DNA from: Cordylochernes scorpioides | Taxonomy: Eukaryota > Arthropoda > Arachnida > Pseudoscorpiones > Chernetidae | Direction of reading: 5' to 3' | NCBI GenBank assembly: GCA_030710605.1 | Contig: CP092870.1 | Location: 58,461,057 to 58,525,056 of the forward strand | Length of the DNA: 64,000 bases | In this document: positions 1 to 62,463 of the stretch, in pieces | How the letters are laid out: every line of letters starts with the position of its first letter | Position numbering within the stretch: position 1 is the first letter of the stretch | The notes under the pieces: generated by a model | What the model saw: the letters and a program-made list of their open reading frames with translations, nothing else | What the model was told of the DNA's origin: nothing | Databases searched by the model: none | Position numbers and translations under genes: made by a program

Positions 1-3000
1 AGAGAGGTGCTACTGTATTGGTGATGGAAACTGTCTTTTATAGAGAGGTGTCCGCTAAAGGGAGGTTCTACTGTATTGGTGATGGAAACTGTCTTTTATA
101 GAGAGGTGTCCGCTTCCGCTAAAGGGAGGTTCTACTGTATTGGTGATGGAAACTGTCCTTTATAGAGAGGTGTCCGCTAAAGGGAGGTTCTACTGTATTG
201 GTGATGGAAAGTGTCCTTTATAGAGAGGTGTCCGCTAAAGGGAGGTTCTACTGTATTGGTGATGGAAACTGTCCTTTATAGAGAGGTGTCCGCTAAAGGG
301 AGGTTCTACTGTATTGGTGATGGAAAGTGTCCTTTATAGAGAGGTGTCCGCTAAAGGGAGGTGCTACTGTATTGGTGATGGAAACTGTCCTTTATAGAGA
401 GGTGTCCGCTAAAGGGAGGTGCTACTGTATTGGTGATGGAAACTGTCCTTTATAGAGAGGTGTCCGCTAAAGGGAGGTTCTACTGTATTGGTGATGGAAA
501 GTGTCCTTTATAGAGAGGTGTCCGCTAAAGGGAGGTTCTACTGTATTGGTGATGGAAACTGTCTTTTATAGAGAGGTGTCCGCTAAAGGGAGGTTCTACT
601 GTATTGGTGATGGAAACTGTCTTTTATAGAGAGGTGTCCGCTAAAGGGAGGTTCTACTGTATTGGTGATGGAAACTGTCTTTTATAGAGAGGTGTCCGCT
701 AAAGGGAGGTTCTACTGTATTGGTGATGGAAACTGTCCTTTATAGAGAGGTGTCCGCTAAAGGGAGGTTCTACTGTATTGGTGATGGAAAGTGTCCTTTA
801 TAGAGAGGTGTCCGCTAAAGGGAGGTTCTACTGTATTGGTGATGGAAACTGTCCTTTATAGAGAGGCGTCCGCTAAAGGGAGGTGCTACTGTATTGGTGA
901 TGGAAACTGTCCTTTATAGAGAGGCGTCCGCTAAAGGGAGGTGCTACTGTATTGGTGATGGAAACTGTCCTTTATAGAGAGGCGTCCGCTAAAGGGAGGT
1001 GCTACTGTATTGGTGATGGAAACTGTCCTTTATAGAGAGGCGTCCGCTAAAGGGAGGTGCTACTGTATTGGTGATGGAAACTGTCCTTTATAGAGAGGCG
1101 TCCGCTAAAGGGAGGTGCTACTGTATTGGTGATGGAAACTGTCCTTTATAGAGAGGTGTCCGCTAAAGGGAGGTTCTACTGTATTGGTGATGGAAAGTGT
1201 CCTTTATAGAGAGGTGTCCGCTAAAGGGAGGTGCTACTGTATTGGTGATGGAAACTGTCTTTTATAGAGAGGTGTCCGCTAAAGGGAGGTACTACTGTAT
1301 TGGTGATGGAAGCTGTCTTTTATAGAGAGGTGTCCGCTAAAGAGAGGTGCTACTGTATTGGTGATGGAAACTGTCCTTTATAGAGAGGTGTCCGCTAAAG
1401 GGAGGTGCTACTGTATTGGTGATGGAAACTGTCCTTTATACAGAGGTGTCCGCTAAAGGGAGGTTCTACTGTATTGGTGATGGAAACTGTCCTTTATAGA
1501 GAGGTGTCCGCTAAAGGGAGGTTCTACTGTATTGGTGATGGAAACTGTCTTTTATAGAGAGGTGTCCGCTAAAGGGAGGTTCTACTGTATTGGTGATGGA
1601 AACTGTCCTTTATAGAGAGGTGTCCGCTAAAGGGAGGTTCTACTGTATTGGTGATGGAAAGTGTCCTTTATAGAGAGGTGTCCGCTAAAGGGAGGTTCTA
1701 CTGTATTGGTGATGGAAACTGTCCTTTATAGAGAGGCGTCCGCTAAAGGGAGGTGCTACTGTATTGGTGATGGAAACTGTCTTTTATAGAGAGGTGTCCG
1801 CTAAAGGGAGGTTCTACTGTATTGGTGATGGAAACTGTACTTTATAGAGAGGTGTCCGCTAAAGGGAGGTGCTACTGTATTGGTGATGGAAACTGTCCTT
1901 TATAGAGAGGTGTCCGCTAAAGGGAGGTTATACTGTATTGGTGATGGGAAGTGTCCTTTATAGAGAGGTGTCCGCTAAAGGGAGGTTCTACTGTACTGGT
2001 GATGGAAACTGTCCTTTATAGAGAGGTGTCCGCTAAAGGGAGGTGCTACTGTATTGGTGATGGAAAGTGTCCTTTATAGAGAGGTGTCCGCTAAAGGGAG
2101 GTGCTACTGTATTGGTGATGGAAACTGTCCTTTATAGAGACGTGTCCGCTAAAGGGAGGTGCTACTGTATTGGTGATGGAAACTGTCTTTTATAGAGAGG
2201 TGTCCGCTAAAGGGAGGTTCTACTCTATTGGTGATGGAAACTGTCTTTTATAGAGAGGTGTCCGCTAAAGGGAGGTTCTACTGTATTGGTGATGGAAACT
2301 GTCTTTTATAGAGAGGTGTCCGCTAAAGGGAGGTGCTACTGTATTGGTGATGGAAACTGTCCTTTATAGAGAGGTGTCCGCTAAAGGGAGGTGCTACTGT
2401 ATTGGTGATGGAAACTGTCCTTTATAGAGAGGTGTCCGCTAAAGGGAGGTTATACTGTATTGGTGATGGGAAGTGTCCTTTATAGAGAGGTGTCCGCTAA
2501 AGGGAGGTTCTACTGTACTGGTGATGGAAACTGTCCTTTATAGAGAGGTGTCCGCTAAAGGGAGGTGCTACTGTATTGGTGATGGAAACTGTCCTTTATA
2601 GAGAGGTGTCCGCTAAAGGGAGGTTCTACTGTATTGGTGATGGAAAGTGTCCTTTATAGAGAGGTGTCCGCTAAAGGGAGGTTCTACTGTATTGGTGATG
2701 GAAACTGTCCTTTATAGAGAGGTGTCCGCTAAAGGGAGGTTCTACTGTATTGGTGATGGAAACTGTCCTTTATAGAGAGGTGTCCGCTAAAGGGAGGTTC
2801 TACTGTATTGGTGATGGAAAGTGTCCTTTATAGAGAGGTGTCCGCTAAAGGGAGGTTCTACTGTATTGGTGATGGAAACTGTCCTTTATAGAGAGGTGTC
2901 CGCTAAAGGGAGGTGCTACTGTATTGGTGATGGAAACTGTCCTTTATAGAGAGGCGTCCGCTAAAGGGAGGTGCTACTGTATTGGTGATGGAAACTGTCT

Positions 3001-6000
3001 TTTATAGAGAGGTGTCCGCTAAAGGGAGGTTCTACTGTATTGGTGATGGAAACTGTCCTTTATAGAGAGGTGTCCGCTAAAGGGAGGTGCTACTGTATTG
3101 GTGATGGAAACTGTCTTTTATAGAGAGGTGTCCGCTAAAGGGAGGTGCTACTGTATTGGTGATGGAAAGTGTCCTTTATAGAGAGGTGTCCGCTAAAGAG
3201 AGGTGCTACTGTATTGGTGATGGAAACTGTCTTTTATAGAGAGGTGTCCGCTAAAGGGAGGTTCTACTGTATTGGTGATGGAAACTGTCTTTTATAGAGA
3301 GGTGTCCGCTTCCGCTAAAGGGAGGTTCTACTGTATTGGTGATGGAAACTGTCCTTTATAGAGAGGTGTCCGCTAAAGGGAGGTTCTACTGTATTGGTGA
3401 TGGAAAGTGTCCTTTATAGAGAGGTGTCCGCTAAAGGGAGGTTCTACTGTATTGGTGATGGAAACTGTCCTTTATAGAGAGGTGTCCGCTAAAGGGAGGT
3501 TCTACTGTATTGGTGATGGAAAGTGTCCTTTATAGAGAGGTGTCCGCTAAAGGGAGGTGCTACTGTATTGGTGATGGAAACTGTCCTTTATAGAGAGGTG
3601 TCCGCTAAAGGGAGGTTCTACTGTATTGGTGATGGAAACTGTCCTTTATAGAGAGGTGTCCGCTAAAGGGAGGTTCTACTGTATTGGTGATGGAAACTGT
3701 CCTTTATAGAGAGGTGTCCGCTAAAGGGAGGTTCTACTGTATTGGTGATGGAAACTGTCCTTTATAGAGAGGTGTCCGCTAAAGGGAGGTGCTACTGTAT
3801 TGGTAATGGAAACTGTCCTTTATAGAGAGGTGTCCGCTAAAGAGAGGTGCTACTGTATTGGTGATGGAAACTGTCTTTTATAGAGAGGTGTCCGCTAAAG
3901 GGAGGTGCTACTGTATTGGTAATGGAAACTGTCCTTTATAGAGAGGTGTCCGCTAAAGAGAGGTGCTACTGTATTGGTGATGGAAACTGTCTTTTATAGA
4001 GAGGTGTCCGCTAAAGGGAGGTTCTACTGTATTGGTGATGGAAACTGTCTTTTATAGAGAGGTGTCCGCTAAAGGGAGGTGCTACTGTATTGGTGATGGA
4101 AAGTGTCCTTTATAGAGAGGTGTCCGCTAAAGAGAGGTGCTACTGTATTGGTGATGGAAACTGTCTTTTATAGAGAGGTGTCCGCTAAAGGGAGGTTCTA
4201 CTGTATTGGTGATGGAAATTGTCTTTTATAGAGAGGTGTCCGCTAAAGGGAGGTTCTACTGTATTGGTGATGGAAATTGTCTTTTATAGAGAGGTGTCCG
4301 CTTCCGCTAAAGGGAGGTTCTACTGTATTGGTGATGGAAACTGTCCTTTATAGAGAGGTGTCCGCTAAAGGGAGGTTCTACTGTATTGGTGATGGAAAGT
4401 GTCCTTTATAGAGAGGTGTCCGCTAAAGGGAGGTTCTACTGTATTGGTGATGGAAACTGTCCTTTATAGAGAGGTGTCCGCTAAAGGGAGGTTCTACTGT
4501 ATTGGTGATGGAAAGTGTCCTTTATAGAGAGGTGTCCGCTAAAGGGAGGTGCTACTGTATTGGTGATGGAAACTGTCCTTTATAGAGAGGTGTCCGCTAA
4601 AGGGAGGTTCTACTGTATTGGTGATGGAAACTGTCCTTTATAGAGAGGTGTCCGCTAAAGGGAGGTTCTACTGTATTGGTGATGGAAAGTGTCCTTTATA
4701 GAGAGGTGTCCGCTAAAGGGAGGTTCTACTGTATTGGTGATGGAAACTGTCTTTTATAGAGAGGTGTCCGCTAAAGGGAGGTTCTACTGTATTGGTGATG
4801 GAAACTGTCTTTTATAGAGAGGTGTCCGCTAAAGGGAGGTTCTACTGTATTGGTGATGGAAACTGTCTTTTATAGAGAGGTGTCCGCTAAAGGGAGGTTC
4901 TACTGTATTGGTGATGGAAACTGTCCTTTATAGAGAGGTGTCCGCTAAAGGGAGGTTCTACTGTATTGGTGATGGAAAGTGTCCTTTATAGAGAGGTGTC
5001 CGCTAAAGGGAGGTTCTACTGTATTGGTGATGGAAACTGTCCTTTATAGAGAGGTGTCCGCTAAAGGGAGGTACTACTGTATTGGTGATGGAAACTGTCC
5101 TTTATAGAGAGGTGTCCGCTAAAGGGAGGTGCTACTGTATTGGTGATGGAAACTGTCCTTTATACAGAGGTGTCCGCTAAAGGGAGGTTCTACTGTATTG
5201 GTGATGGAAACTGTCCTTTATAGAGAGGTGTCCGCTAAAGGGAGGTGCTACTGTATTGGTGATGGAAACTGTCTTTTATAGAGACGTGTCCGCTAAAGGG
5301 AGGTGCTACTGTATTGGTGATGGAAACTGTCCTTTATAGAGAGGTGTCAGCTAAAGGGAGGTGCTACTGTATTGGTGATGGAAACTGTCCTTTATAGAGA
5401 GGTGTCCGCTAAAGGGAGGTTCTACTGTATTGGTGATGGAAACTGTCCTTTATAGAGAGGTGTCCGCTAAAGGGAGGTGCTACTGTATTGGTGATGGAAA
5501 CTGTCCTTTATAGAGAGGTGTCCGCTAAAGAGAGGTGCTACTGTATTGGTGATGGAAACTGTCTTTTATAGAGAGGTGTCCGCTAAAGGGAGGTTCTACT
5601 GTATTGGTGATGGAAACTGTCTTTTATAGAGAGGTGTCCGCTTCCGCTAAAGGGAGGTTCTACTGTATTGGTGATGGAAACTGTCCTTTATAGAGAGGTG
5701 TCCGCTAAAGGGAGGTTCTACTGTATTGGTGATGGAAAGTGTCCTTTATAGAGAGGTGTCCGCTAAAGGGAGGTTCTACTGTATTGGTGATGGAAACTGT
5801 CCTTTATAGAGAGGTGTCCGCTAAAGGGAGGTTCTACTGTATTGGTGATGGAAAGTGTCCTTTATAGAGAGGTGTCCGCTAAAGGGAGGTGCTACTGTAT
5901 TGGTGATGGAAACTGTCCTTTATAGAGAGGTGTCCGCTAAAGGGAGGTGCTACTGTATTGGTGATGGAAACTGTCCTTTATAGAGAGGTGTCCGCTAAAG

Positions 6001-9000
6001 GGAGGTTCTACTGTATTGGTGATGGAAAGTGTCCTTTATAGAGAGGTGTCCGCTAAAGGGAGGTTCTACTGTATTGGTGATGGAAACTGTCTTTTATAGA
6101 GAGGTGTCCGCTAAAGGGAGGTTCTACTGTATTGGTGATGGAAACTGTCTTTTATAGAGAGGTGTCCGCTAAAGGGAGGTTCTACTGTATTGGTGATGGA
6201 AACTGTCCTTTATAGAGAGGTGTCCGCTAAAGGGAGGTTCTACTGTATTGGTGATGGAAAGTGTCCTTTATAGAGAGGTGTCCGCTAAAGGGAGGTTCTA
6301 CTGTATTGGTGATGGAAACTGTCCTTTATAGAGAGGCGTCCGCTAAAGGGAGGTGCTACTGTATTGGTGATGGAAACTGTCCTTTATAGAGAGGCGTCCG
6401 ATAAAGGGAGGTGCTACTGTATTGGTGATGGAAACTGTCCTTTATAGAGAGGCGTCCGCTAAAGGGAGGTGCTACTGTATTGGTGATGGAAACTGTCCTT
6501 TATAGAGAGGCGTCCGCTAAAGGGAGGTGCTACTGTATTGGTGATGGAAACTGTCCTTTATAGAGAGGCGTCCGCTAAAGGGAGGTGCTACTGTATTGGT
6601 GATGGAAACTGTCTTTTATAGAGAGGTGTCCGCTAAAGGGAGGTTCTACTGTATTGGTGATGGAAACTGTCCTTTATAGAGAGGTGTCCGCTAAAGGGAG
6701 GTGCTACTGTATTGGTGATGGAAACTGTCCTTTATACAGAGGTGTCCGCTAAAGGGAGGTTCTACTGTATTGGTGATGGAAACTGTCCTTTATAGAGAGG
6801 CGTCCGCTAAAGGGAGGTGCTACTGTATTGGTGATGGAAACTGTCCTTTATAGAGAGGCGTCCGCTAAAGGGAGGTGCTACTGTATTGGTGATGGAAACT
6901 GTCCTTTATAGAGAGGTGTCCGCTAAAGGGAGGTTCTACTGTATTGGTGATGGAAAGTGTCCTTTATAGAGAGGTGTCCGCTAAATGGAGGTGCTACTGT
7001 ATTGGTGATGGAAACTGTCCTTTATAGAGAGGCGTCCGCTAAAGGGAGGTTCTACTGTATTGGTGATGGAAACTGTCCTTTATAGAGAGGTGTCCGCTAA
7101 AGGGAGGTTCTACTGTATTGGTGATGGAAAGTGTCCTTTATAGAGAGGTGTCCGCTAAAGGGAGGTGCTACTGTATTGGTGATGGAAACTGTCCTTTATA
7201 GAGAGGTGTCCGCTAAAGGGAGGTGCTACTGTATTGGTGATGGAAACTGTCCTTTATAGAGAGGTGTCCGCTAAAGGGAGGTGCTACTGTATTGGTGATG
7301 GAAACTGTCCTTTATAGAGAGGTGTCCGCTAAAGGGAGGTTCTACTGTATTGGTGATGGAAACTGTCCTTTATAGAGAGGTGTCCGCTAAAGGGAGGTGC
7401 TACTGTATTGGTGATGGAAACTGTCTTTTATAGAGAGGTGTCCGCTAAAGGGAGGTGCTACTGTATTGGTGATGGAAACTGTCTTTTATAGAGAGGTGTC
7501 CGCTAAAGGGAGGTTCTACTGTATTGGTGATGGAAACTGTCTTTTATAGAGAGGTGTCCGCTAAAGGGAGGTGCTACTGTATTGGTGATGGAAACTCTCT
7601 TTTATAGAGAGGTGTCCGCTAAAGGGAGGTTCTACTGTATTGGTGATGGAAACTGTCTTTTATAGAGAGGTGTCCGCTAAAGGGAGGTGCTACTGTATTG
7701 GTGATGGAAACTGTCCTTTATAGAGAGGTGTCCGCTAAAGAGAGGTTCTACTGTATTGGTGATGGAAACTGTCCTTTATAGAGAGGTGTCCGCTAAAGGG
7801 AGGTTCTACTGTATTGGTGATGGAAACTGTCCTTTATAGAGAGGTGTCCGCTAAAGGGAGGTTCTACTGTATTGGTGATGGAAACTGTCCTTTATAGAGA
7901 GGTGTCCGCTAAAGGGAGGTGCTACTGTATTGGTGATGGAAACTGTCTTTTATAGAGAGGTGTCCGCTAAAGGGAGGTACTACTGTATTGGTGATGGAAG
8001 CTGTCTTTTATAGAGAGGTGTCCGCTAAAGAGAGGTGCTACTGTATTGGTGATGGAAACTGTCCTTTATAGAGAGGCGTCCGCTAAAGGGAGGTGCTACT
8101 GTATTGGTGATGGAAACTGTCCTTTATACAGAGGTGTCCGCTAAAGGGAGGTTCTACTGTATTGGTGATGGAAACTGTCCTTTATAGAGAGGCGTCCGCT
8201 AAAGGGAGGTGCTACTGTATTGGTGATGGAAACTGTCCTTTATAGAGAGGCGTCCGCTAAAGGGAGGTGCTACTGTATTGGTGATGGAAACTGTCCTTTA
8301 TAGAGAGGTGTCCGCTAAAGGGAGGTTCTACTGTATTGGTGATGGAAAGTGTCCTTTATAGAGAGGTGTCCGCTAAATGGAGGTGCTACTGTATTGGTGA
8401 TGGAAACTGTCCTTTATAGAGAGGCGTCCGCTAAAGGGAGGTTCTACTGTATTGGTGATGGAAACTGTCCTTTATAGAGAGGTGTCCGCTAAAGGGAGGT
8501 TCTACTGTATTGGTGATGGAAAGTGTCCTTTATAGAGAGGTGTCCGCTAAAGGGAGGTGCTACTGTATTGGTGATGGAAACTGTCCTTTATAGAGAGGTG
8601 TCCGCTAAAGGGAGGTGCTACTGTATTGGTGATGGAAACTGTCCTTTATAGAGAGGTGTCCGCTAAAGGGAGGTGCTACTGTATTGGTGATGGAAACTGT
8701 CCTTTATAGAGAGGTGTCCGCTAAAGGGAGGTTCTACTGTATTGGTGATGGAAACTGTCCTTTATAGAGAGGTGTCCGCTAAAGGGAGGTGCTACTGTAT
8801 TGGTGATGGAAACTGTCTTTTATAGAGAGGTGTCCGCTAAAGGGAGGTTCTACTGTATTGGTGATGGAAACTGTCTTTTATAGAGAGGTGTCCGCTAAAG
8901 GGAGGTTCTACTGTATTGGTGATGGAAACTGTCTTTTATAGAGAGGTGTCCGCTAAAGGGAGGTGCTACTGTATTGGTGATGGAAACTCTCTTTTATAGA

Positions 9001-12000
9001 GAGGTGTCCGCTAAAGGGAGGTTCTACTGTATTGGTGATGGAAACTGTCTTTTATAGAGAGGTGTCCGCTAAAGGGAGGTGCTACTGTATTGGTGATGGA
9101 AACTCTCTTTTATAGAGAGGTGTCCGCTAAAGGGAGGTTCTACTGTATTGGTGATGGAAAGTGTCCTTTATAGAGAGGTGTCCGCTAAAGAGAGGTGCTA
9201 CTGTATTGGTGATGGAAACTGTCCTTTATAGAGAGGTGTCCGCTAAAGAGAGGTGCTACTGTATTGGTGATGGAAACTGTCTTTTATAGAGAGGTGTCCG
9301 CTAAAGGGAGGTGCTACTGTATTGGTGATGGAAACTGTCTTTTATAGAGAGGTGTCCGCTAAAGGGAGGTTCTACTGTATTGGTGATGGAAACTGTCCTT
9401 TATAGAGAGGTGTCCGCTAAAGGGAGGTTCTACTGTATTGGTGATGGAAACTGTCCTTTATAGAGAGGTGTCCGCTAAAGGGAGGTTCTACTGTATTGGT
9501 GATGGAAAGTGTCCTTTATAGAGAGGTGTCCGCTAAAGGGAGGTTCTACTGTATTGGTGATGGAAAGTGTCCTTTATAGAGAGGTGTCCGCTAAAGGGAG
9601 GTGCTACTGTATTGGTGATGGAAACTGTCCTTTATAGAGAGGTGTCCGCTAAAGGGAGGTTCTACTGTATTGGTGATGGAAACTGTCCTTTATAGAGAGG
9701 TGTCCGCTAAAGGGAGGTTCTACTGTATTGGTGATGGAAACTGTCTTTTATAGAGAGGTGTCCGCTAAAGGGAGGTTCTACTGTATTGGTGATGGAAAGT
9801 GTCCTTTATAGAGAGGTGTCCGCTAAAGGGAGGTTCTACTGTATTGGTGATGGAAAGTGTCCTTTATAGAGAGGTGTCCGCTAAAGGGAGGTTCTACTGT
9901 ATTGGTGATGGAAACTGTCCTTTATAGAGAGGTGTCCGCTAAAGGGAGGTTCTACTGTATTGGTGATGGAAACTGTCCTTTATAGAGAGGTGTCCGCTAA
10001 AGGGAGGTGCTACTGTATTGGTGATGGAAACTGTCCTTTATAGAGAGGCGTCCGCTAAAGGGAGGTGCTACTGTATTGGTGATGGAAACTGTCCTTTATA
10101 GAGAGGCGTCCGCTAAAGGGAGGTGCTACTGTATTGGTGATGGAAACTGTCTTTTATAGAGAGGCGTCCGCTAAAGGGAGGTGCTACTGTATTGGTGATG
10201 GAAACTGTCTTTTATAGAGAGGCGTCCGCTAAAGGGAGGTTCTACTGTATTGGTGATGGAAACTGTCCTTTATAGAGAGGTGTCCGCTAAAGGGTGGTTC
10301 TACTGTATTGGTGATGGAAACTGTCCTTTATAGAGAGGTGTCCGCTAAAGGGTGGTTCTACTGTATTGGTGATGGAAACTGTCCTTTATAGAGAGGTGTC
10401 CGCTAAAGGGAGGTGCTACTGTATTGGTGATGGAAACTGTCCTTTATAGAGAGGTGTCCGCTAAAGGGAGGTGCTACTGTATTGGTGATGGAAACTGTCT
10501 TTTATAGAGAGGTGTCCGCTAAAGGGAGGTGCTACTGTATTGGTGATGGAAACTGTCTTTTATAGAGAGGTGTCCGCTAAAGAGAGGTGCTACTGTATTG
10601 GTGATGGAAACTGTCCTTTATAGAGAGGTGTCCGCTAAAGGGAGGTGCTACTGTATTGGTGATGGAAACTGTCCTTTATAGAGAGGTGTCCGCTAAAGGG
10701 AGGTGCTACTGTATTGGTGATGGAAAGTGTCCTTTATAGAGAGGTGTCCGCTAAAGGGAGGTTCTACTGTATTGGTGATGGAAAGTGTCCTTTATAGAGA
10801 GGTGTCCGCTAAAGGGAGGTGCTACTGTATTGGTGATGGAAACTGTCTTTTATAGAGAGGTGTCCGCTAAAGAGAGGTGCTACTGTATTGGTGATGGAAA
10901 CTGTCCTTTATAGAGAGGTGTCCGCTAAAGGGAGGTGCTACTGTATTGGTGATGGAAACTGTCTTTTATAGAGAGGTGTCCGCTAAAGGGAGGTTCTACT
11001 GTATTGGTGATGGAAACTGTCTTTTATAGAGAGGTGTCCGCTAAAGGGAGGTTCTACTGTATTGGTGATGGAAACTGTCTTTTATAGAGAGGTGTCCGCT
11101 AAAGGGAGGTGCTACTGTATTGGTGATGGAAACTCTCTTTTATAGAGAGGTGTCCGCTAAAGGGAGGTTCTACTGTATTGGTGATAGGTAGTGTCCTTTA
11201 TAGAGAGGTGTCCGCTAAAGAGAGGTGCTACTGTATTGGTGATGGAAAGTGTCCTTTATAGAGAGGTGTCCGCTAAAGAGAGGTGCTACTGTATTGGTGA
11301 TGGAAACTGTCTTTTATAGAGAGGTGTCCGCTAAAGGGAGGTTCTACTGTATTGGTGATGGAAACTGTCCTTTATAGAGAGGTGTCCGCTAAAGGGAGGT
11401 GCTACTGTATTGGTGATGGAAAGTGTCCTTTATAGAGAGGTGTCCGCTAAAGGGAGGTTCTACTGTATTGGTGATGGAAAGTGTCCTTTATAGAGAGGTG
11501 TCCGCTAAAGGGAGGTTCTACTGTATTGGTGATGGAAACTGTCTTTTATAGAGAGGTGTCCGCTAAAGGGAGGTGCTACTGTATTGGTGATGGAAACTGT
11601 CCTTTATAGAGAGGTGTCCGCTAAAGGGAGGTGCTACTGTATTGGTGATGGAAAGTGTCCTTTATAGAGAGGTGTCCGCTAAAGAGAGGTGCTACTGTAT
11701 TGGTGATGGAAACTGTCCTTTATAGAGAGGTGTCCGCTAAAGGGAGGTGCTACTGTATTGGTGATGGAAAGTGTCCTTTATAGAGAGGTGTCCGCTAAAG
11801 GGAGGTTCTACTGTATTGGTGATGGAAAGTGTCCTTTATAGAGAGGTGTCCGCTAAAGGGAGGTTCTACTGTATTGGTGATGGAAACTCTCTTTTATAGA
11901 GAGGTGTCCGCTAAAGGGAGGTGCTACTGTATTGGTGATGGAAACTGTCCTTTATAGAGAGGTGTCCGCTAAAGGGAGGTGCTACTGTATTGGTGATGGA

Positions 12001-12279
12001 AACTGTCTTTTATAGAGAGGTGTCCGCTAAAGGGAGGTGCTACTGTATTGGTGATGGAAAGTGTCCTTTATAGAGAGGTGTCCGCTAAAGGGAGGTTCTA
12101 CTGTATTGGTGATGGAAAGTGTCCTTTATAGAGAGGTGTCCGCTAAAGAGAGGTGCTACTGTATTGGTGATGGAAACTGTCTTTTATAGAGAGGTGTCCT
12201 CTAAAGGGAGGTTCTACTGTATTGGTGATGGAAACTGTCCTTTATAGAGAGGTGTCCTCTAAAGGGAGGTTCTACTGTA
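1..12279. repeat. 58-bp tandem satellite (about 210 copies), left end outside the window
   Basis: The whole stretch is head-to-tail copies of a 58-bp unit starting TACTGTATTGGTGATGGAAA and ending in GGGAGGTTC or GGGAGGTGC. Variants mix at a few positions (AACTGTCC/AAGTGTCC/AACTGTCT, GGTGTCC/GGCGTCC, GGGAGG/AGAGAGG). A 6-bp insertion (TCCGCT doubled) recurs near 110, 3308, 4300 and 5640, and a rare variant pair (GGTACTACTG followed by GGAAGCTGT) recurs at about 1288 and 7976. The distance between that pair equals 115 units plus the three intervening 6-bp insertions, so blocks of many units have been copied. Read on the minus strand each unit begins TACAGTAGAACCTCC, the same end as the MITEs elsewhere in the window. 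No long ORF survives because 58 is not a multiple of 3. The last units change GTCCGCT to GTCCTCT before the array stops. Confidence 0.97.
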
Positions 12280-12372: not shown

Positions 12373-51810
<39,438 letters not shown>

Positions 51811-52956: not shown

Positions 52957-53126
52957 TATACAGTAGAACCTACCTGTAAAGGACAACACCTAATTGCAGA
53001 GCCAAAGTGTTCTTTAGAGAGAGATGTCCTCTTACCAAAGAGTTACTAAATAATAAAAATGGTCCTTTTTCAAATGAAAACTGTTCTTTGTAGAGAGGTG
53101 TCTTCTAAAGGGAGGTTCTACTGTAT
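52957..53126. mobile_element. Short complete MITE, likely parent of several arrays
   Basis: About 170 bp bounded by TACAGTAGAACCTACC and GGGAGGTTCTACTGTA, inverted ends with TA at both tips as in Tc1/mariner-pogo elements. From left to right it contains GTAAAGGACAACACCTAATT (72-bp array unit), TACTAAATAATAAAAATGG and CAAATGAAAACTGTTC (74-bp unit), and TTTGTAGAGAGGTGTC plus GGGAGGTTCTACTG (58/60-bp units). It has no ORF, so it would need an outside transposase. Confidence 0.8.
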
Positions 53127-54509: not shown

Positions 54510-54645
54510 GCAGTTAAACCTGTCTATAACGCCCCCTCTAAATAGACTAGAGAGCTGTTAAATAATAAAAATGGTAATTTTTTTGCAAATAGAAACTGTC
54601 CTTTGCGTAAAGAGCTGTCCTCTCATTGTGGTTCTACTGTATATA
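54510..54645. mobile_element. Chimeric fragment of the two pogo-like MITE families
   Basis: GCAGTTAAACCTGTCTATAA (left end of the 107-bp family) runs into AAATAGACTAGAGAGCTGTT and CTCTCATTGTGGTTCTACTG (right end of the other family). The two ends share a similar 5' CAGTNNAACC. Confidence 0.6.
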
Positions 54646-55164: not shown

Positions 55165-56126
55165 GTTTGCAATGTTTTCCCACTATGTACTAAGTGTCAA
55201 TCTGCAATCCTAAACATTATCTTTGACTCTATTGACTCATCCATTGTGAGCTTTACTCATCCCCAGAAGGCACCATCAACAAGCTCTACAAGCTTGATAC
55301 CCTAATATGATTGTTGAGTGGAGATAAGAAAGAAGAGACTCATCCCCAGCACAGACACCATCAACAAGCTCTACAGACTTGATACCCTGATATGATTGTT
55401 GAGTGGAGATAAGAAAGAAGAGACACATCCCCAGCACAGACACCGTCAACAAGCTCTACAGACTTGATACCCTGATATGATTATTGAGTGGAGATAAGAA
55501 AGAAGAAGAGACTCATCCCCAGCACAGACACCATCAACAAGCTCTACAGACTTGATACCCTGATATGATTGTTGAGTGGAGATAAGAAAGAAGAAGAGAC
55601 TCATCCCCAGCACAGACACCATCAACAAGCTCTACAGACTTGATACCCTGATATGATTGTTGAGTGGAGATAAGAAAGAAGAAGAGATCCATCCCCAGCA
55701 CAGACACCATCAACAAGCTCTACAGACTTGATACCCTGATATGATTGTTGAGTGGAGATAAGAAAGAAGAAGAGATCCATCCCCAGCACAGACACCATCA
55801 ACAAGCTCTACAGACTTGATACCCTGATATGATTGTTGAGTGGAGATAAGAAAGAAGAAGAGATCCATCCCCAGCACAGACACCATCAAAAAGCTCTACA
55901 GACTTGACACCCTGATATGATTGTTGAGTGGAGATAAGAAAGAAGAAGAGACACATCCCCAGCACAGACACCATCAACAAGCTCTACAGACTTGATACCC
56001 TAATATGATTGTTGAGTGGAGATAAGAAAGAAGAAGAGACTCATCCCCAGCACAGACACCATCAACAAGCTCTACAGACTTGATACCCTGATATGATTGT
56101 TGAGTGGAGATAAGAAAGAAGAAGAT
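55165..56126. repeat. TIR element with an 88-bp array on its right, about 10 copies
   Basis: Same body (GTTTTCCCACTATGTACTAA, 55170-55255) followed by about ten units in the opposite orientation to 41653-42460 (CATCCCCAGCACAGACACCA, GAGTGGAGATAAGAAAGAAG). Thus two insertions of one family have amplified opposite ends. Confidence 0.9.
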
Positions 56127-57642: not shown

Positions 57643-57802
57643 CTAAAATAGTGTTTGATGTTTTGTAAACAGTGTTGTTACCATCATCACACTTTTGTAT
57701 TCATGTATTCAGTACTTTTGTCTGATGATGGTAACAACGATTTTACTGAAATGTCACACATTATTTATTTTATTTGGATTTGCTCTTTTTACCTTATGTT
57801 TA
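57643..57802. repeat. Penelope-type terminal palindrome
   Basis: AGTGTTTGATGTTTTGTAAA and GTTACCATCATCA facing TCTGATGATGGTAACAACG and GAAATGTCACACATT. Confidence 0.75.
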
Positions 57803-57809
57803 AGACTTT

Positions 57810-58870
57810 AAATGACAATACCTAGTTGTAGGGCCGAGTGATCTTTGGGAGAGGTATCCTCTTATTGGAGAGTTGTTATTTAGAAAAAAAAGGTTATTTT
57901 GGTGATGAGAATTGTCCAGTGTAGAGAGGTGTCCTCTCATAGAGGTTGTTATACTGTATTGGTGATGGAAACTGTCCTTTGTAGAGAGGTGTCCTCTCAT
58001 GGAGGTTGTTCTACTGTATTGGTGATGGAAACTGTCCTTTGTAGAGAGGTGTCCTCTCATGGAGGTTGTTCTACTGTATTGGTGATGGAAACTGTCCTTT
58101 GTAGAAAGGTGTCCTCTCATGGAGGTTGTTCTACTGTATTGGTGATGGAAACTGTCCTTTGTAGAAAGGTGTCCTCTCATAGAGGTTGTTCTACTGTATT
58201 GGTGATGGAAACTGTCCTTTGTAGAAAGGTGTCCTCTCATGGAGGTTGTTCTACTGTATTGGTGATGGAAACTGTCCTTTGTAAAGAGGTGTCCTCTCAT
58301 AGAGGTTGTTCTACTGTATTGGTGATGGAAACTGTCCTTTGTAGAAAGGTGTCCTCTCATAGAGGTTGTTCTACTGTATTGGTGATGGAAACTGTCCTTT
58401 GTAGAAAGGTGTCTTCTCATGGAGGTTGTTCTACTGTATTGGTGATGGAAACTGTCCTTTGTAGAAAGGTGTCTTCTCATGGAGGTTGTTCTACTGTATT
58501 GGTGATGGATGGGGGGTCAGTGGAAGGCTGGTTAAACCGTTTGGGTTTCGACCACCACGACCCGGTTTCGATTCCCGCATTGGACACTTTTTCTGTTTAG
58601 CTCCAATGGCCCCCGATTCTTGCAAAAGTCCAAACCCACCAGCGAGTACAAGTAACCAAACGGGGCTCTGGCACATTTGTAAGTGCAAAGTCGAACTGCT
58701 TTTCACATGTGTAGACATGTGGTGTACTTACAGTAAAAGCAGTCGCTAACTACCCACCATGATTATCATGACCTGTACCATGTGTACTAGGGATAAGCAA
58801 AAAAAAAAAAAATTGGTGATGGAAACTGTCCTTTATAGAGAGGTGTCCTCATAGAAGTTGTTCTACTGTG
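57810..58870. repeat. MITE with 60-bp array (10 copies), broken by a SINE
   Basis: Left part ACCTAGTTGTAGGGCCGAGT, then about ten near-identical 60-bp units (TTCTACTGTATTGGTGATGG and so on). Unit variants are GTAGAGAGG/GTAGAAAGG and CATGGAGG/CATAGAGG. The tenth unit is split by the SINE at 58510-58812 and resumes after it. Confidence 0.92.
58510..58812 (+). mobile_element. tRNA-derived SINE inserted into the 60-bp array
   Basis: Head GGGGTCAGTGGAAGGCTGG, B box GGTTTCGATTCCCG, tail ACTAGGGATAAGC plus poly(A). The 12-bp duplication ATTGGTGATGGA (58498-58509 and 58813-58824) is itself part of the array unit, dating the insertion after array growth. Confidence 0.95.
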
Positions 58871-60938: not shown

Positions 60939-62463
60939 CTGCACACAACAGTCCTGTTAACTCTCTGCTCCAACAGTAATGTAACCACAACTTGCTATGA
61001 GAGGACACTCCCGCTAGAGGACACCTCTCTACAAAGGACAGTTTCCATCACCAATACAGTAGAACAACTTCCATGAGAACATTCATGCTAGAGGACACCT
61101 CTCTACAAAGGACAGTTTCCATCACCAATACAGTAGAACAACCTCTATGAGAGGACAGTTCTCTACAAAGGACAGTTTTCATCACCAATACAGTAAAACA
61201 ATCTCCATGAGAGGACACTCCCGCTAAAGGACACCTCTCCACAAAGGACAGTTTTCATTTTCAAAAATTACCATTTTTACAATTTAGTAGCTCTCCATTA
61301 AGAGGACACCTTTCCCTAAAGGACACTATGACTCTGCAATTAGGTGTATTTTACAGAGAGGTAGTTCTACCGTATATTCTTTAGAGAGTTTGTGTACAAC
61401 TCACAAATGCATCAATAGTATAAAACCAACAAATAGAAATCAAATAATTTTACAATTCAAGATATTGCAGTTATAATGAAAACAATTTAACAATTACAAG
61501 TTATGAAAGGAGTAAATTTACAACAATGCATTGTAATTATACCATAACAATTAACAAATCAATTATGCACCAAATAGGAATACTTTGTAATCCTATAACA
61601 ATGGCCAACTCAACAATGCAAATATTGTAATATGTGTTATAGTAAATTATAATGGTCAACTAAATAATCACTGTATACTTTGTAAGGACAATGTTTTTGA
61701 GCCAGTGTCCTCTTTTTAAAGACCTGCTGAATATATATATTTTTAAATTTATCCAAAGTGCTTGTGGTACAGGCCATGATAAGCATGGTAGATAATTAGC
61801 GAATGCTTTTACTGTAAGTACACCACATGTCTACACATGGTACAGGCCATGATAATCATGGTGGGTAGTTAGCGACTGCTTTTACTGTAAGTGCACCAGA
61901 TGGTACAGACCATGATAATCAAGGTAGGTAGTTGGCGACTGTTTTACTGTAAGTACACCACATGTTTACACATGGTACAGGGCATTATAATCATGGTGGG
62001 TAGTTAGTGACTGCTACACAATAAGTACACCACATGTCTACACATTTGAAAAGCAGTTTGACTTTACATTGTAGAGAAATGTCCTCTTTATCACTTCAAG
62101 AACCCACCTTTAACTAGCTGTTCCTTGAGGTCTGTTCCAATCCGTTTCTCAATCGCCTTCAAAGCATCCACGTCGCGTGGTCCTACGAGGGAGATGGCAA
62201 TACCATCTTTGCCTGCTCGAGCAGTACGACCCACCCTATGGATGTATGTATCAGGATCAGTAGGGACATTGTGATTGATCACCACGTCTACATTGGGAAT
62301 GTCCAGACCTCTACTGGCTACATCCGTGGTCACCAGTAGTTTGACTTTACGCGACTTGAACTTCTGGAAGTTGACGCGACGGTTCTGCATCTTCATCATG
62401 GAATGGAGGCAGATGTTGTCAAAGTTGAGTTCCTGGAGGGCCATTGACAGGTACTGGCAGATT
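60664..62463 (-). CDS. DDX49: DEAD-box RNA helicase, DDX49/Dbp8-like, last two exons
   Basis: Minus-strand gene whose 5' exons lie beyond the right edge. The two visible exons encode the second half of the helicase C domain and the charged C-terminal tail. Motif V is [10 protein letters not shown] and motif VI is [10 protein letters not shown], both intact, with VVINHNVP between them, an arrangement typical of DDX49 and yeast Dbp8. That subfamily acts in the nucleolus on 40S ribosomal subunit assembly. The family name rests on motif order and on the tail (VNVAVRH at the position of the family's VNVVRRE), not on a search. The intron (60939-62107) holds a MITE and SINE-tail repeats. Confidence 0.85.
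60996..61378. mobile_element. MITE of the TACAGTAGAACC family in the helicase intron
   Basis: Three to four copies of the left unit (GAGGACACTCCCGCTAGAGG, ACAAAGGACAGTTTCCATCA), the middle (TTACCATTTTTACAATTTAG) and the inverted right end (TTTTACAGAGAGGTAGTTCT). It shows the same family is present outside the ankyrin gene. Confidence 0.85.
61380..61760. other. AT-rich intron sequence of the helicase gene, nothing recognised
   Basis: Low-complexity sequence with imperfect repeats of ACAATGCAATATTGTAAT type. No ORFs, no known repeat ends. Confidence 0.6.
61765..62070 (-). repeat. Tandem array of SINE tails, four copies
   Basis: Four units of about 70-75 bp: GGTACAGGCCATGATAATCA, TGGTGGGTAGTTAGCGACTG, CTTTTACTGTAAGTACACCA, CATGTCTACACAT. 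Only the 3' part of the SINE is present; no tRNA head. It lies in the helicase intron, 30 bases from the exon donor. Confidence 0.88.
62108..62463 (-). CDS. DDX49: DDX49-like helicase, C-terminal core exon
   Basis: Starts after the acceptor TTTGTCCCAG (minus strand) with one base completing a codon, then [20 protein letters not shown] and SMMKM. The helicase motifs are [20 protein letters not shown] and [15 protein letters not shown]. It ends at G before GTGGGT, after LKEQLVK. The reading frame stays open a little past the donor to a TGA at 62093, but splicing at GTGGGT restores family-like sequence in the next exon. Confidence 0.88.

Follow-up and report, generated by a model that had tools for sequence, protein, structure and literature searches.

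How satellite DNA begins is an old question, and mostly finished arrays have been seen; in the genome considered here, several beginnings occur within one assembly. The window (the whole stretch of DNA analysed, 64 kb, at positions 58461057-58525056 of contig C8) contains tandem arrays with units of 44, 58, 60, 72, 74 and 76 bp, and it raises the question of whether these are distinct satellites or descendants of one transposon. A preliminary description attributed them to a single non-autonomous family, a 170-bp copy of which was taken to hold the seeds of several satellites. The reading favoured here, to which we give a probability of roughly 0.8, is that a TA-flanked MITE family repeatedly becomes tandem arrays through partial duplication, dispersal, local growth and change of period. 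One genome contains relatives in single copy, forms with two or three units, long arrays and, in one case, the host sequence that set the unit border, so that founding duplication, dispersal, local growth and period change can be told apart and counted within it.

The element in question is a single-copy MITE of 170 bp at 52957-53126 (plus strand), with ends TACAGTAGAACC...GGTTCTACTGTA, interior CAAATGAAAACTG and a TA target-site duplication on both sides. Its first 28-29 bp recur inverted at the opposite end with 85.7-86.2 % identity (BLAST), and its folding as single-stranded DNA (z = -3.5) is equalled by none of 200 shuffles. It also contains a direct repeat, positions 48-76 and 122-150, whose copies are 83 % alike and offset by 74 bp. 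A search of the genome (2.62 Gb, 24 contigs) gave 3057 first-look candidates, of which 40 were scored; these lie on many contigs, and each covers positions 4-168 or more with an identity no lower than 89 %. Only 40 candidates were scored in each DNA search of the genome, so that copy numbers are lower bounds. The element is thus a MITE by its short length, inverted terminal repeats, TA duplication and many copies at unrelated places. The TA target agrees with the Tc1/mariner-pogo superfamily; the terminal sequence of the family is TACAGTAGAAC, and its CAGTAGAACCTC presumably resembles pogo-type ends. TA also stands on either side of several multi-ended copies and is lost in some, for example at the left end at 40 kb.

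Aligned copies fall into two interior subtypes, A (CAAATGAAAACTG, in 52957 and others) and B (GGTGATGAAAACTG). Pattern counts, which allow mismatches, record sites and not loci and list the first 100 places, give 5,883 genome-wide matches to the B-subtype interior AATGGTAATTTTGGTGATGAAAACTG with 2 mismatches at most (none in the control), mostly lone scattered sites among the first 100 exact matches listed. The window itself holds a B-subtype fragment at 42706-42807 (minus strand; interior TTGGTGATGAAAACTG). At 54551-54642 (plus strand), a right part of this MITE is joined to a left part like that of a second MITE family (CAGTTAAACCTGTC end), and the element looks like a chimera of both families.

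The relation of the arrays to this MITE was assessed by aligning ten consensus units to 52957-53126, with 300 dinucleotide shuffles per unit: 58 bp; 74 bp; 72 bp; 76 bp at 40 kb; 60 and 76 bp at 44 kb; 44 and 76 bp at 47-48 kb; 60 bp at 58 kb; and 74 bp at 61 kb (no unit of the 41-kb copy was among them). The preliminary description had staked the match between units and MITE on its exceeding that of shuffled sequence, and all ten units exceeded all of their shuffles (scores of 48-136 against best shuffle scores of 23-36; 0/300 per unit). The units thus derive from the element, as in a satellite riding on a MITE, and the order of segments is also as first described: 72-bp units come from the left (positions 3-67), 74-bp units from the middle (48-150) and 58- and 60-bp units from the right (118-170), the 76- and 44-bp units also lying on the right part (about 117-158). 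With borders set by hand, the family and its arrays occupy 22.1 of the 64 kb, about a third. Five other window arrays (107, 81, 88, 123 and 47 bp; first 120 nt of the 123-bp unit) scored only 15-21, equalled by 17-269 of 300 shuffles, and were rejected as members of this family. The 81-, 88-, 123- and 47-bp arrays, unrelated to the MITE by this test, lie at 31405-35159, 41659-42450, 55255-56125, 46144-46925 and 50358-51019.

Nine array loci of the family are present in the window. The 58-bp array at 1-12279 (plus strand; 206 units of 58 bp and four of 64 bp between 211 joins) stops at a MITE right end; its left border lies outside the window, which leaves eight loci testable for the left end. 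The 74-bp array at 25300-26205 (minus strand) is contained in a MITE copy with both ends, and its period is the same as the distance (74 bp) by which the two copies of the internal repeat are offset. At 37423-39236 (plus strand), 72-bp units composed of MITE positions 3-67 plus CAGC are followed by the full right part of the MITE, again with both ends present. Two MITE copies have three right ends, both on the minus strand and with an A-subtype founder: one at about 40046-40385, with two 76-bp units beyond the founder (search query 40044-40387), and one at 41322-41652, also with 76-bp units. The copy at 42921-45753 (plus strand) combines a two-copy 40-bp duplication of the left end with a right-end array of 76-, 60- and 58-bp units (40 joins) and retains both ends. 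At 47372-49391 (plus strand), a MITE left end precedes a right-end array in which the units measure 76 and 44 bp and 29 joins occur, the right end being lost. A left-truncated B-subtype MITE with a 60-bp right-end array and a right end occupies 57800-58868 (plus strand), and the locus at 60996-61374 (minus strand) consists of a left end, a founder and right units of 60 and 74 bp, its right end being truncated.

Judged by eye, the left MITE end is seen at 7 of 8 testable loci, the right end at 7 of 9 and both at 5 of 8, which bears out the claim that several arrays are still bounded by MITE ends. The terminal TA is missing on the left at 40 kb, on the right of the 74-bp array and on the right at 58.9 kb. 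The survey was extended to 40 right-type clusters from 32 sources (the window, L003-L009 and L040-L063; L001, L002 and the overlapping L010-L039 were omitted); L040-L059, 20 large loci, were taken as the first exact matches listed on one chromosome and are not a random sample. The left half of the MITE stands ahead of the first unit in 33 clusters, over at least 49 bp in 24 of them; the other 9 matches are short and might stem from the repeat inside the unit. A right end lies beyond the final unit in 34 clusters, of which two or more continue into another unit. Arrays far from any MITE end, which would have spoken against the preliminary description, are thus not the rule, these 9 and at least 2 doubtful cases included. 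Where the left match is required to start at the end itself, 13 of 40 clusters have both ends.

These observations bear on a scheme in which a MITE captured a pre-existing satellite, the arrays being older than the element. Such a capture has been published for a similar case, miDNA4 of Xenopus, as reviewed in PMC12628747; here it is very improbable. The present data yielded no support for it: the units include ends of the transposon itself and run collinearly with the interior of MITE copies, the B-subtype interior exists mostly as the lone scattered sites already mentioned (among the first 100 exact matches), and, in place of one acquired internal repeat, left, middle and right segments have been used, mostly including a transposon end.

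The right-type arrays share one structure. In their join, the outer right MITE end CTACTGTA is fused to the interior sequence TTGGTGATGG or to a close variant such as TTGGCAATG, which is frequent in the array at 47372-49391. With variants, this join is found at all seven right-type loci of the window (27-base pattern, up to 7 mismatches, then read), and genome-wide it has 17,801 matches at up to 2 mismatches against 0 for the reversed control (2.62 Gb). The same 27-base join has no match in either the viral or the prokaryote contig collection; one 18-base match occurs in the viral collection and was taken as chance. Unit alignments relate the periods to one another: the 60-bp unit is the 76-bp unit less a 16-bp block, the 44-bp unit the same less 32 bp, and the 58-bp unit the same less 18 bp. 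Because a single join is common to all, the 58-, 60-, 76- and 44-bp arrays, together with the 74-bp unit at 61 kb, are one satellite lineage with period variants, and their interpretation as products of different segments was dropped. The idea of one non-autonomous family with different segments expanded therefore stands for left, middle and right, with more classes elsewhere, and falls for separate expansions on the right-hand side. The element at 52957 lacks the TTGGTGATGG unit start, reading TTTCAAATGA in its place, and has no counterpart of the 16-18 bp block found in 76-bp units; it is a relative of the right arrays and not the seed it had been taken for. Unit alignments suggest that new periods would arise by deletion between short repeats within a unit (GTGTCCTCT, 16 bp apart; GAGGT, 32 bp apart) and would be amplified in turn, making one lineage look like several satellites. 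By way of caution, neighbouring satellites with unlike periods may belong to a single lineage.

Beyond the window, further classes were found: left 47-, 77-, 91- and 104-bp units and right 88-bp units. With these, nine period classes are distinguished (left 40, 47, 72, 77, 91 and 104; right 76-type; right 88; middle 74), and in eight of them a unit border lies at the transposon end or within about 27 bp of it, the middle 74-bp class being the exception. The founding step proposed from these joins is that part of a MITE copy was duplicated in tandem; for most classes, one border of the duplicated part would lie no more than about 27 bp from a transposon end and the other in the interior. Alternatively, the duplication would have taken place between the two copies of the internal 29-bp direct repeat. 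The latter, as unequal exchange between the repeats, fits the middle type, which may have arisen in this way. Middle arrays also occur at L042, where a middle and a right array lie within one element, and at L046 and L049; B-subtype runs at 76.63, 76.71 and 127.03 Mb of C1 were assigned to the middle type by their 73-74-bp spacing alone. Right 88-bp units at L041 (C1) contain about 27 nt of non-MITE filler.

At one locus, a founding duplication seems still readable in place. L060 (C20) has 27 unit starts with all 26 spacings of 47 bp and only two variants. Its unit border is the 9-bp word CCTAATTGC, which the host flank and the MITE interior have in common; each unit includes the 8 bp of host flank between this word and the transposon end. 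A match of at least 9 bp anywhere between the shuffled 30-bp flank and the MITE appeared in 14 of 1000 shuffles, the real match falling exactly at the unit border. This structure fits a founding duplication through a short match between host flank and MITE. The same mode was considered for TTGGTGATGG in the right units, as captured host flank, and was rejected, the B-subtype interior being common genome-wide (5,883 matches; control 0).

L060 would also agree with a purely local origin, in which each array arose at its own locus by slippage or microhomology, shared joins mark a preferred break point and transposition supplied only monomers. Every L060 unit carries 8 bp of host flank past the matched word, the two-copy 40-bp left duplication at 42921 takes in 2 bp adjoining the end, the middle type recurs, and founders are close to the units at the locus where they lie. 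Against this stands the 72-bp class, in which a 4-nt filler, CAGC, absent from the other MITE copies aligned, is common to C3, C8 and the window: the join has 2000 matches (control 2), of which the exact ones listed (the first 100) are on C3 and C8. In the window and in L063, whose flanks differ, the array opens with a unit that starts at the transposon end; at L061, one of the three 72-bp borders, the array starts in a truncated unit and not at the transposon end. As a general account, a purely local origin is unlikely, and for the right and 72-bp types it is already disfavoured, on this filler and on the evidence for dispersal given below.

A different route to duplicated ends is self-insertion, in which one MITE nests in an interior TA of another, giving two left or two right ends, and later transposes with one outer and one inner end, so that left- or right-type seeds are produced and then expand. 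It would account for left and right arrays together. In four arrays, its expected join, transposon TA to interior TA, is met with exactly or largely: four partial left units at L064 (C19), 104 bp apart, are joined to the end at an interior TA and followed by a full MITE; the 77-bp units of L065/L066 (C14), from another subfamily, have the L064-type join, the 77- and 104-bp classes having one join in common; three of four between-unit joins of the 91-bp array at L040 (C1) lie at a second interior TA; and the 107-bp array of the second TA-flanked MITE family (21829-23601, plus strand) has units that start at the transposon end with TACAGTTAAACCTGTC, its inverted right end GACAGGTTTAACTGTA lying at 23586-23601. 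Moreover, A-subtype founders bear B-subtype units in most typed clusters (21 CAAATG, 6 GGTGAT and 6 untyped; n = 33, segmental duplicates included). TA/TA joins are equally 2-bp microhomologies, however, and the joins of L040, L064-L066 and the 107-bp family may come from either. The left-hand self-insertion pattern has 267 matches (control 2), which include chance flanks, to which the reversed control is no guide.

For the right join, self-insertion fares worse. Its exact product at the interior TA hardly exceeds background (14 matches against 3 in the control, one of them exact) and was rejected as the origin of this join, which falls 3 nt short of the expected product, and the variant source copy reading GGTATTGGTGATG, which would yield the join, is nearly absent, with 1 match genome-wide. 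Neither the self-insertion product nor such a source copy explains in detail the founding route of the right and 72-bp joins, the two commonest. Self-insertion is accordingly possible but doubtful as the founding mechanism, and somewhat more doubtful in its wider form, in which MITEs inserting into their own interior TAs gain duplicated ends, any left end pairs with any right end, and mobile, self-expanding satellites bounded by a transposon end result.

Partial duplication followed by dispersal, the favoured course, proposes that a copy with an extra end retains its outermost left and right ends, would stay mobile and would carry one join to many places. The right and 72-bp joins are both widespread. 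The 344-bp stretch 40044-40387, with its left end, founder and two more right ends, gave 4173 first-look candidates genome-wide. Forty of these were scored, the query's own copy among them: full-length matches number 26 and are spread over 13 contigs, and matches of 300 bp or longer number 36, over 17 contigs. For 15 elements whose left end was recognised, comparison of the upstream 200-bp flanks gave only three matching pairs (same-strand BLAST), two of them segmental duplicates and one a 76 % stretch. Both results tell against pure local origin, and the wide spread of the joins is best read as transposition of elements already bearing an extra end. The scattering of such copies is well supported for the right-end type and fairly supported for the 72-bp type; a shared join could nevertheless arise repeatedly rather than once. 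In the window, several loci have stretches of other repeats in common within 300 bp on each side, so that this comparison alone cannot separate transposition from other copying. Given the shared flank repeats and the segmental duplicates on C1, some of the array spread is not transposition. Segmental duplications with array loci lie at 76-80 Mb of C1 (L051/L053, L045/L046 and L057/L058).

Local growth is indicated by the likeness of units within loci, which exceeds that between them. Among 91 distinct right-type units, the nearest neighbour belongs to the same locus in 85 %, against a mean of 30 % and a maximum of 51 % in 1000 permutations. In the 58-bp array, the 206 58-bp units comprise 35 sequence variants, and runs of variants repeat in identical order tens of units apart. 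This pattern would follow from multiplication and homogenisation of units at each locus, most likely by unequal exchange. Founders show a related effect, with mean distances of 0.151 to units of their own locus, 0.177 to units elsewhere and 0.222 to other founders (n = 33; own locus versus elsewhere, Wilcoxon p = 6e-4). For these distances, the second members of the segmental duplicates in the survey (L045/L046 plus strand, L051/L053 and L057/L058) were removed, and a few badly aligned founders were kept (58.8 kb and two L050 clusters). The closeness of founders to their own units implies that founders and units exchange sequence or that part of the duplication is local, and it tells against dispersal alone, since the scatter of a fixed founder-plus-unit structure predicts the opposite. 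A tree of 11 founder left halves (about 110 bp) has support never above 74 and was set aside. The low-copy forms, regarded in the preliminary description as successive stages, could be steps of growth or of shrinkage, the two being indistinguishable in them. At L050 (6416-7712), right-type arrays alternate minus, plus, minus within 1.3 kb, which suggests inverted expansion too.

The origin of satellites from transposon parts and the riding of arrays on MITEs are already known. In Xstir/Xmix of Xenopus (Hikosaka and Kawahara 2004, as reviewed in PMC12628747 and PMC9659126), MITE, array and composite forms coexist; there as here, units derive from the element, and MITE, tandem array and MITE-plus-array stand side by side. 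The reviews describe one unit type for Xstir/Xmix, whereas several segments are used here, most with a border at the transposon end. For miDNA4, a Tc1/mariner MITE of Xenopus tropicalis with a variable array that can become a free satellite (Scalvenzi and Pollet 2014, from the same two reviews), the array is likewise carried by a MITE, and short repeats and microhomology are invoked; the proposal there is capture of an already existing repeat, in contrast to the element's own ends and interior in the present case. Tetris/TIR-220 of Drosophila virilis offers another parallel, as repeats inside transposon ends became satellite arrays and unequal exchange was proposed (PMC4079207). Tandem units within a transposon end expand to satellites in both systems, but Tetris, according to the account given there, is a foldback element with one unit type of about 220 bp in its ends, and the present element a TA-flanked MITE of 170-190 bp.

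Plant MULEs with tandem terminal inverted repeats, for which slippage and nested insertion are discussed (PMC3310237), still transpose and thus share extra tandem ends and preserved mobility with the MITE copies considered here. MULEs with a one-sided extra end are hardly amplified in that account, which describes no long arrays, whereas the right-only extra-end element is abundant here. Several satellites from one transposon family are reviewed for Ogre in Lathyrus and for LTR-derived satellites of potato (PMC9659126); those are LTR retrotransposons, unlike the present MITE. In the mostly open literature on MITE-to-satellite origins, as far as its content was accessible, no report describes a single MITE family that gave rise to arrays from this many of its segments. 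The present case stands apart by the number of segments and joins per family, the abundance of an element with a one-sided extra end, and a founding event readable in place.

Several minor features of the window may be added. Units like those of its 81- and 88-bp arrays recur in several C1 loci. A near-perfect palindrome of the unit (ACAAAGGACAGTTTGGTGATGAAACCTGTCCTTTGT) at 15428-15463 places the right half head-to-head, its 126-bp context folding at z = -5.0. The 60-bp array holds, at about 58510-58812, a SINE-like insertion with a poly-A tail and an 11-bp flanking duplication, TTGGTGATGGA; within it, GGTTTCGATTCCCG is what we take to resemble a pol III B box. Ankyrin-repeat gene fragments and a helicase domain are also present within the 64-kb window.
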